A stretch of DNA of 64,000 bases, from NCBI RefSeq assembly GCF_025056915.1, contig NZ_JANWVH010000001.1, positions 1 through 64,000 on the forward strand, in the 5' to 3' direction. How positions within the stretch are numbered: position 1 is the first letter of the stretch; each line of letters begins with the position of its first letter. The position numbers were made by a program, and so were the translations under genes. A model generated the notes under the pieces. That model was not told the origin of the DNA, searched no databases, and saw only the letters and a program-made list of their open reading frames with translations. The DNA comes from Meiothermus sp. (GTDB lineage Bacteria; Deinococcota; Deinococci; Deinococcales; Thermaceae). Positions 16,193-54,317 of this stretch are shown here, one piece after another.

Positions 16193-16648
16193 GAGGAAAT
16201 TTTTTTAGCGGTGCTGCGGTTTGGTTGCTTGCCGCCTCTACGATGCGAGGAGTGGAGGCCGGGCAGCCTCCCGTGTTTATGTGGTGGTAGCTCCACTGCC
16301 TCTGCGCTTGTCCCGATTAGGCCACATCACCGTCAGATGGGGCGATTGATGGGCGGATGGCCCAATTGCTGTGTAGCTCGAGCGCCAGTACAACCACATC
16401 CTGTACGGTGAGCGAATCAAGTCAATGATGGTCTGGACTCGCTCTGTCCCTCCCCTCCTTTGTAGGGGAGGCCAGGTGGGGTGGCTGACCTGGCCCTTCA
16501 CGCAATCTGTGAGTTGAATGCCTCGCCTAATACCTTCCCCAACCCTTCCTGCGCCGGAGGGAGGGGCTTGAGGGCTGCCACTCTTTGGTATTTGTGCGAG
16601 TGCACGCCTATCTTTACAACTGCCTGCTGCTTCCTTTGAAAATAGTGC

Positions 16649-20491: not shown

Positions 20492-20632
20492 GGGCTTGCG
20501 CTCCCGGCTCGAGGTCTTGATGCCAACCTTGCTCGAACCCTTGGCATTCTACTGAAGCGGTGCGTCAAGGCAGAGGTCAGGGCGCAGGGGGCAGGTGGGG
20601 AGACCTACCCCCGCTCCAATCCTTTGTCACCC

Positions 20633-20738
20633 TATCGCGCTCTTCACAGACGTGGCCGTCCATCCAGGCGACCACTGTTCCGTTCAGAATCAGGCTTTTT
20701 CGAACTCGAATGGCTCAGAATATGTGAAGAGCGCTCTA
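20633..20738 (+). repeat. MITE-like palindromic element, copy B (106 bp)
   Basis: TATCGCGCTCTTCACAGACGTGGCCG...TCGAATGGCTCAGAATATGTGAAGAGCGCTCTA. Confidence 0.85.
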
Positions 20739-20954
20739 ATACCAAATCTCCCTCAAAGCGGCACCTAAAGTCAGGATCGGGCCATACAACGTCGAAGCGG
20801 CAGGCGGAATTCTGAAGGCGGCATGTACCCTTGGCTGGAGCACCAACGCCTGGCTGCCGAGTGGTATCGTCCAGCTTGCCAGGGTCAGATAGCTTTGGGT
20901 TCTGGTCTTGGATTCAGGAGGCTTTATGCGTTACCTCGTTGTAGATGTTGGTAT
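20739..20954 (+). repeat. Second repeat family, copy 1 (~216 bp), abutting copy B
   Basis: ATACCAAATCTCCCTCAAAGCG...CCTTGGCTGGAGCACC...TCTTGGATTCAGGAGGCTTTATGCGTTACCTCGTTGTAGATGTTGGTAT; near copy at 33146-33364. Confidence 0.8.
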
Positions 20955-21060
20955 AAGATGCTGGTACGCCTAAAGCCCTGGAGGCTGTCTTTGGAGTTCC
21001 ACAGCACTCCCATTGGCTGGGTCGGCTGGTCGCTGTTTGGTAACCAACCAACCGACCCTG

Positions 21061-24678: not shown

Positions 24679-24841
24679 TAGAGGGCTCTTCACATAGAGC
24701 CATTCGACGATAAGAAAGCTTTGTCCTGGACAGAACAGTGGCCGCCTGGAAACTCGAAAACATGCGTCTCGGCCCAGACCCAACGCAGACACTTGTCCCT
24801 TCTCGTTTTCGTGGGCGGCCACGTCTGTGAAGAGCGCGATA
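24679..24841 (-). repeat. MITE-like palindromic element, copy C (163 bp, inverted orientation)
   Basis: TAGAGGGCTCTTCACATAGAGCCATTCGA...GCGGCCACGTCTGTGAAGAGCGCGATA. Confidence 0.85.
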
Positions 24842-33145: not shown

Positions 33146-33364
33146 TACGACCAAATCTCCCTCAAAGCGACCCCTAAAGCCAGAATGGGGCCCTACGACC
33201 TCGAAGGGGCAGGCAGAACCCTGAAGGCAGCGGGTACCCTTGGCTGGAGCACCCACGCCTTCTGCCGAGTGGCATCTCGTCCAGCTTGCCGGGGTCAGAT
33301 AACCTTGCTTCTAGTCTTGGATTCAGGAGGCTTTATTTGTTACCTCGTCGTGGATTTTGTGTAA
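33146..33364 (+). repeat. Second repeat family, copy 2 (~219 bp)
   Basis: ACGACCAAATCTCCCTCAAAGCGACCCCTAAAGC...CCTTGGCTGGAGCACCCACGCC...TCTTGGATTCAGGAGGCTTTATTTGTTACCTCGTCGTGGATTTTG. Confidence 0.8.
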
Positions 33365-33407
33365 AGCAATTCATGAGGTCGGACAAGCTGGGAGGGGGCG
33401 ATCGGCT

Positions 33408-33573
33408 TATCGCGCCCTTCACAGGCGTGGCCGCCCATGAAAACGAGAAGGGACTAGTGTCTGCGTTGCGTCTGGGCCGAGGCGCATGTTTTCGAGTTTC
33501 CAGGCCGCCACTATTCTGTCCAGGACAAAGCTTTCTTATATTTCGAATGGCTCTAAATGTGAAGAGCGCTCTA
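33408..33573 (+). repeat. MITE-like palindromic element, copy E (166 bp)
   Basis: TATCGCGCCCTTCACAGGCGTGGCCGCCCATGAAAACGAG...GGCGCATGTTTTCGAGTTTCCAGGCCGCCAC...ATGTGAAGAGCGCTCTA. Confidence 0.88.
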
Positions 33574-33702: not shown

Positions 33703-34209
33703 ATGAAGTTGAAGCTGGGTGACCCTGCTCCTCTAGTGCAGGTTCAGGACGCTATGGGCCGCACAGTGGATTTGGCGGCGCTGGTCGGGCAGGGGCGTTA
33801 CATTGTGCTGTGGTTCTACCCCAAGGCCAGTTCGCCGGGTTGCACCGCCCAGGGAAAGCAGTACGCCGAGCTGCACGATGCCTTCAGGCAGCTGGGCGCC
33901 GAGGTGTTTGGCGTGAGCGCCGACCCCGCCTCGGCGCAGTGTCGGTTTATAGACCGGCTGGCCTTGCAGGGCGGCATGATTCCCGATCCCTCGGGGGCCT
34001 TGGGGCGTGCTTTTGGGGTGGGCGGTTGGCTGGGCTTTGGCCAGCTGCTGGGGATGTACAACCGCGATACCATTCTGATCAACCCGGAGGGGCGGATTGA
34101 AAAAATCTGGCGCAATGTTAACCCTTTCCAGGATGCCAGGGTGGTGCTGGAATACTTGAAATCGAAGGTGGGTGCGGGCCCCGCTCAGGCCGAGTCTGCG
34201 CCAACTTGA
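33703..34209 (+). CDS. Peroxiredoxin (Bcp/PrxQ-like), cytoplasmic
   Basis: YIVLWFYPKASSPGCTAQGKQYAELHDAFRQLGAEVFGVSADPA. Confidence 0.9.
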   Translation: MKLKLGDPAPLVQVQDAMGRTVDLAALVGQGRYIVLWFYPKASSPGCTAQGKQYAELHDAFRQLGAEVFGVSADPASAQCRFIDRLALQGGMIPDPSGALGRAFGVGGWLGFGQLLGMYNRDTILINPEGRIEKIWRNVNPFQDARVVLEYLKSKVGAGPAQAESAPT

Positions 34210-34257
34210 AGCCTGGCCCACAGCAGGGTGGGCCTCCTTGCGGGCAGACTCGAGGGT

Positions 34258-34755
34258 ATGAAACGCCTGTGGTTCTTGCCCTTGCTGCTGGCGCCCGCGC
34301 TGGCCCTGGCCCCCGGCGACCCGGTCTCCTTGCCCAGAGTGCAGGACTCCTACGGCAGGCCCGTAGACCTGGCGGCGGTCGCTCGAGAAGGGAAGTATCT
34401 GTTGTTCTGGTTCTACCCCAAGGCCAGCTCGCCCGGCTGCACCGCCCAGGGCAAGCGCTACGCCGAGCTATACGGCGAGTTCGACCGGCTCGGGGTGGAG
34501 ATTTTCGGGGTGAGCGCCGACCCCGCCGCCGACCAGTGCAGCTTCATCGAGCAGATGGCCCTCAAAGGGGCCATGCTCCCCGATAAGGACGGCACCCTGG
34601 CCCGGCTCTTCAAAGTGGGAGGGTTTTTGGGCTTTTACAACCGCGATACCATCCTGGTCAACCCCAAAGGCCGCATCGAGCGCATCTGGCGCAGTGTGAA
34701 CGCCTTCCGCGACCCCGATACGGTGCTGGCCTACGTGCGTGAAATCAAGCGATGA
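34258..34755 (+). CDS. Peroxiredoxin (Bcp/PrxQ-like), exported paralogue
   Basis: Signal peptide MKRLWFLPLLLAPALALA; FWFYPKASSPGCTAQGKRYAELYGEFDRLGVEIFGVSADPAADQC. Confidence 0.9.
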   Translation: MKRLWFLPLLLAPALALAPGDPVSLPRVQDSYGRPVDLAAVAREGKYLLFWFYPKASSPGCTAQGKRYAELYGEFDRLGVEIFGVSADPAADQCSFIEQMALKGAMLPDKDGTLARLFKVGGFLGFYNRDTILVNPKGRIERIWRSVNAFRDPDTVLAYVREIKR

Positions 34756-41088: not shown

Positions 41089-41134
41089 TATCGCGCTTAC
41101 AGACGAGGCCGCCACGTTTGTGAAGAGCGCGATA
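41089..41134 (+). repeat. MITE-like palindromic element, copy G (46 bp internally deleted form)
   Basis: TATCGCGCTTACAGACGAGGCCGCCACGTTTGTGAAGAGCGCGATA. Confidence 0.75.
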
Positions 41135-41162
41135 TGTGTTACCTCGTTGTAGATTTGGTATT
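41133..41162 (+). repeat. 3' tail of second repeat family
   Basis: TATGTGTTACCTCGTTGTAGATTTGGTATT matches the last ~30 bp of the 20739-20954 copy. Confidence 0.7.
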
Positions 41163-54167: not shown

Positions 54168-54317
54168 TATCGCGCTCTTCACAGACGTGGCTGCCCACGA
54201 AAACGAGCATGCGTCTGAGCCGAGACGCATGTTTTCGAGTTTCCGGGCGGCCACTGTTCTGTTCAGAACCCGGCTTCCTCCAACTCGAATGGCTCACAAT
54301 ATGTGAAGAGCGCTCTA
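54168..54317 (+). repeat. MITE-like palindromic element, copy H (150 bp)
   Basis: TATCGCGCTCTTCACAGACGTGGCTGCCCACGAAAACGAGCATGCGTCTGAGCCGAGACGCATGTTTTCGAGTTTCCGGGCGGCCAC...TCGAATGGCTCACAATATGTGAAGAGCGCTCTA. Confidence 0.9.

Follow-up and report, generated by a model that had tools for sequence, protein, structure and literature searches.

An IS630-like MITE set against an abundant palindromic repeat in Meiothermus: a probable scar of nested insertion

At about 20.6 kb of the window, as the whole stretch of 64,000 nucleotides of Meiothermus DNA analysed here is called, a short palindromic repeat (A) is directly followed by a member of a second repeat family (B). Do such contacts arise because the two repeats travel together, or because they are inserted into the same kind of place? 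The source genome is a 3.02-Mb draft in 191 contigs, and the locus lies within a contig of 136 kb. The following features were assigned there:

20521..20626, plus strand: repeat E, the third interspersed repeat of the locus; its left end is of the TACCAAC type but degenerate (also on contigs C134, C147, C166 and C169)
20633..20738, plus strand: short form of repeat A, bounded by TA on either side and comprising profile positions 1-28 and 90-165, from the HMM; its left edge is common to the relatives G007 and G020
20737..20739, plus strand: left target duplication TAA of B, the TA portion being the right end of A (sequence reading)
20740..20953, plus strand: repeat B, an IS630-like MITE, TACCAAATCT...AGATGTTGGTA (genome search, IS alignment and IS protein matches)
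20954..20956, plus strand: right target duplication TAA of B (sequence reading)

The preliminary description had let the palindromic element end at 20738 with another repeat directly after it, and this is what we find: A begins with the TA at 20633, its final TA ends at 20738, and no gap is present at 20738/20739. The start of the second repeat at 20739 marks the boundary correctly, but this base is the last one of the TAA duplication, and B in the strict sense is TACC...GGTA at 20740-20953. The left TAA reuses the terminal TA of A. The imperfect terminal inverted repeats that had been quoted for B are present in the sequence. Repeat E, which the preliminary description had overlooked, is flanked by TGA (20518-20520) and TCA (20627-20629), which look like a decayed 3-bp duplication; G007 and G020, which have no E at the same place, read GTCTTGACCG(T/G)CC, then TATC. 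Sites of E with TACCAAC-type ends are window 20521-20626, C147:61660-61758, C134:17173, C166:5589 and C169:32330. The order E-A-B is seen again at C147, where A seems to have entered E at a CTAA site.

A profile HMM of A was built from 30 copies and run on an 833-kb sample of the genome. It revealed 86 loci, corresponding to about 310 per genome, and A covers about 9% of the crude intergenic sequence. The ends of A are TATCGCGCTCTTCAC and GTGAAGAGCGCTCTA, the target logo is YTA...TAR, and folded copies form long stems. A has the features of a palindromic MITE-like element: terminal inverted repeats, TA at either end, a high copy number and an intergenic position. The repeat is present in several relatives of the same genus, and the nearest named genome found with a matching sequence in a pattern search is that of an uncultured Meiothermus. 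Among 30 DDE_3 loci of the genus no autonomous element with the ends of A was found. Long A copies of the relative G015 were considered as the autonomous parent; those inspected are nested composites and contain no IS.

The genome search with B revealed 11 near-full copies plus shorter matches, and the ten near-full copies besides the window copy are 77-91% identical to it. Together with the outcome of repeat finding and the A loci counted above, these copies show that both repeats are real and not a product of chance. A complete IS with the same ends is found in the relatives G009 and G015, with 1106 bp between TACC and GGTA. Two ORFs of this IS match the NCBIfam IS630 model NF033545 over positions 1-132 and 145-298 of 299 (E 9e-22 and 1e-15, each alone below the cut-off). 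Its transposase contains an HTH_33 domain above the Pfam cut-off and matches DDE_3 with 27.2 bits compared to a cut-off of 28.6. Canonical IS630 elements duplicate TA. Four complete copies of the IS (L055, L057, L063 and L068) show 3-bp duplications of TTA or GAA instead, and the parent is therefore called IS630-like and not a canonical member. In comparison to the IS of about 1.1 kb, B comprises only about 216 bp. It matches only IS positions 1-45 and 958-1111, that is about 45 bp of the left end and about 150 bp of the right end including C-terminal codons of the transposase, it has its terminal inverted repeats in common with the complete IS, and it encodes no complete transposase. B is therefore an internally deleted, non-autonomous derivative (MITE) of a 1.1-kb IS630-like IS. 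The 3-bp duplications of B are TGA, TAA or TTA, and usually of the form TNA. Pieces of the IS ends are located at contig ends of the source genome, and several partial B matches there are probably the ends of a larger element that collapsed in the assembly. A genome-wide sequence-pattern search with B gave no match in a named genome, and an Rfam search of the window matched only a tRNA, and neither A nor B. A compound B element of about 400 bp occurs at C136:37888-38268 and C114:39786-40197 (L008, L011, L018). It consists of B, another repeat of about 120 bp (TGTCATTCCGAG...) and a second left end of B, which is in the same orientation or degenerate; at C114 TAA is found on both sides.

The order of events at the 20.6-kb locus was addressed by comparison with relatives. 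The locus is an expanded intergenic region in this lineage; 0-30 bp separate the flanking genes in G005 and G018. In G007 and G020 the terminator is the same and is followed by the same short A, which begins at the identical base, and B is absent. Their A holds another MITE, D, at GGCTCT(A/G)A, with the target duplications TAA and TGA and in opposite orientations. The right flank of the orthologous A consists of other DNA in G007 and G020; orthology is based on the left edge and the short form. Since these relatives carry A without B, and D inside A, A was, as judged by sequence comparison, there first and was struck later by IS630-type MITEs, independently by species (by B in the source genome). 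In G007 (L243, contig C122) the D inside A has three tandem copies of a unit of about 45 bp (AAGTTATCCGCGTAGCGGAGGGC..).

Further copies of both repeats are found elsewhere in the window:

24679..24839, minus strand: further full-length A (HMM)
33148..33362, plus strand: second copy of B, 85% identity, with decayed ends and no clear duplication (repeat finding, genome search)
33408..33573, plus strand: full-length A (TATCGCG...GCGCTCTA); 45 bp separate it from the second B, which lies upstream (HMM)
41089..41134, no strand: minimal A of 46 bp, comprising both ends and the stem only (HMM)
41133..41160, plus strand: solitary fragment from the right end of B; the junction with A is at B position ~187 (TTTA^TGTG) (genome search)
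54170..54317, plus strand: further full-length A (HMM)

The second copy of B previously placed at 33146-33364 was recovered at about 33148-33362, and the opposite relative order reported for this locus was also seen, A being downstream of B here and upstream at the first locus. However, the two do not abut there, as 45 bp of other DNA (33363-33407) lie between them. A further exact contact, overlooked before, is located at 41133, where an A hairpin of only 46 bp is directly followed by the final ~28 bp of B. In the relatives examined, A and B are absent from the 33-kb and 41-kb loci. Next to the 33-kb pair the window contains tandem related genes (33703-34209 and 34206-34586), which are 72% identical over 110 bp.

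For the whole genome, intergenic TNA sites served as the null, with the intergenic space derived from crude gene calls. A lies no more than 10 bp away from 9.1% of these sites and no more than 50 bp away from 12.5%. Five of the 11 near-full B copies are at most 50 bp away from A, compared to 12.5% expected (P 0.007); three (the window copy, L005 inside A, and L009) are at most 10 bp away, compared to 9% expected, which alone is not significant. Outside the near-full copies and the IS ends, all four solitary right ends of B abut A at a TA, with A in both orientations. Further contacts occur at L010, at C111 and with an extra fragment at L002. At L005 a B with the target duplication TGA is nested in a copy of A, and deleting B restores A; this is the only near-full B seen inside A in this genome. 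At C191 the left end of B is retained on the far side of A, so that here A is nested in B. Right-end pieces of B beside A, with non-B DNA beyond A, are located at C99:37994, C114:34774 and window 41133; at C99 the contig ends in A and the far side is not visible. The association of A and B is real, and modest for intact B copies. The possibility named earlier, that the two repeats occur independently genome-wide with no association, does not agree with these counts, although the excess of near-full B over the intergenic null is modest.

The use of A as a target can be followed best in G015, a relative assembled in three contigs. Long A copies of this genome contain two MITEs: D, which occurs as a 124-bp element and in longer versions, and C, which measures 340 bp and has ends resembling those of L150, an element of the IS630 family. 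A recognisable GATTCTTA^G site or a near variant is present in 27 A copies within the first 1.2 Mb of G015 contig 1. This CTTA^G site is filled in 19 of the 27 (nine times by D, ten times by C) and empty in eight, and each MITE occurs in both orientations; a single insertion followed by copying is therefore excluded as the whole story. Of the 26 D copies that retain both ends, 25 are flanked by perfect 3-bp duplications of the form TNA, and 11-12 are at A (one of the twelve may be a chance match), compared to 4.2% of the intergenic TNA sites being inside A. One site of A is thus used repeatedly in G015, and the fixed-position insertion into A, similar to that known for REP sequences, is seen there for both C and D. 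At L179 (G015:C1:670900-672100) a 503-bp piece of the parent IS of B, 100% identical to L055, lies inside A beside D. The inner part of C (100-214, with two CCTCCCTACGC-type palindromes) is matched by window 16449-16565 and recurs alone in at least ten places of the genome sample, which suggests a small repeat that was captured by C.

Under linked mobilisation, A and B would be transposed jointly as a single composite. The two A-B contacts in the window, and the recurrence of the order E-A-B at 20.6 kb and at C147, could be read in that way. A composite A::D::C of 795 bp, 99.5% identical at two sites of G015 with unrelated flanks and ending at the terminus of A, demonstrates that unit transposition or gene conversion of composites happens too. 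Some nested units therefore spread together, which could inflate the G015 counts. A tree of the host A copies was tried for composite transposition in G015 and set aside, as the copies were too similar and the labels unclustered. For the A-B pair, however, at least five junction geometries exist in the genome (end-to-end, 4 bp apart, 45 bp apart, B in A, and A in B at two positions), the B at 20.7 kb has a TAA duplication of its own, and the orthologous site in G007 and G020 carries A without B, which largely refutes the idea for this pair. Because junctions and orientations vary, A plus B does not move as one unit, and we regard linked mobilisation as very improbable. Of the two explanations offered in the preliminary description, target preference stands, supplemented by a shared tolerance of intergenic space, and linked mobilisation of A and B is not supported at these loci.

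Could tolerance alone be sufficient, so that both repeats without any target preference just pile up in the same few permissive intergenic spots? As A alone covers about 9% of the intergenic DNA some contacts are expected, and in this lineage the intergenic regions concerned are expanded. On the other hand, one CTTAG site of A is reused exactly by two MITE families in G015, the CTTAG sites make up ~0.35% of the intergenic TNA sites yet take a large share of the D copies (those 11-12 of 26), and A reuses one TA of B at four loci. An absence of preference is therefore unlikely, without being far-fetched.

Junctions might also be produced by recombination between A copies or by the assembly, and not by insertion. 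The assembly is indeed broken at these repeats (191 contigs, with several IS ends at contig ends), and solitary halves of B beside intact ends of A fit A-A recombination. Three solitary B ends keep just one half of B beside A, where simple insertion predicts both halves, and it may be speculated that A-A recombination produced them. As a general explanation this is most improbable, since intact 3-bp duplications are present at L001, L003, L004 and L005 as well as in the 25 of 26 D copies of the 3-contig relative, and the window locus is located inside its 136-kb contig.

The composite is thus very probably a scar of nested insertion by independent mobile elements, shaped by target preference and tolerated intergenic space. 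A, which is MITE-like, old and very abundant, occupies TA sites. B, which duplicates 3 bp, came to be placed directly at the TA end of an A that was already present, its target TAA being composed of this terminal TA and the next base, and the transposase of the IS would presumably mobilise B in trans. IS630-type MITEs strike internal sites of A again and again, and A for its part enters B-type elements. Contacts recur because both kinds of elements need short TA or TNA targets, because intergenic DNA is where such targets and the room to tolerate insertion are mostly found, and because A makes up a large and neutral share of this DNA that carries TA. A is a recurrent landing pad for small mobile elements, rather than a co-traveller with its neighbour, and probably has no function of its own in these insertions. 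It is doubtful, and rather improbable, that A acts as a carrier, whose internal CTTAG site captures IS630-type MITEs and, at least at L179, a piece of the IS itself, and whose ends then spread the composite. If that were true, one mobile family would disperse several others.

The phenomenon as such is already known from REP sequences as IS targets and from the nesting of RUP and BOX, and the Meiothermus case is a new example. RUP, BOX and SPRITE are short intergenic repeats of Streptococcus pneumoniae, which insert into one another and into IS copies; RUP has a TA target and is thought to be mobilised by IS630-Spn1 (PMC3049150, PMC2229807). The repeats described here resemble them in being short and intergenic, in mutual insertion and, as for RUP, in an IS630-type parent and a TA target. 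Host and elements are different, B and D duplicate 3 bp and not TA, and two other families reuse one internal site of the palindrome A. REP/BIME palindromes are insertion targets of IS1397, IS621, ISPpu9 and others, the REP-targeting elements belonging to the IS3, IS110, IS4, IS256 and IS5 families (PMC1525189). Both cases have in common that mobile elements prefer to insert into an extragenic palindrome of high copy number, but the visitors to A are IS630-like MITEs, A itself looks like a transposon-type element, and the targeting is partial and not 100%. Correia elements/NEMIS and ERIC are palindromic repeats of small size that carry TA at either end and occur in many copies (PMC2229807). 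A is likewise palindromic, TA-ended and of high copy number, a likeness of form for which the sequence comparison is the Rfam search mentioned above, with no match to A or B.

Literature searches on Meiothermus as a thermophile genus found no description of such elements. The loci preserve a natural history of insertions that took place repeatedly and independently at one palindrome site, in several species and with target duplications that can still be read, and they document an IS630-like lineage with a 3-bp duplication in place of TA. They make the question whether bacterial repeats cluster due to a shared target taste or a shared tolerance testable in a thermophile genus.
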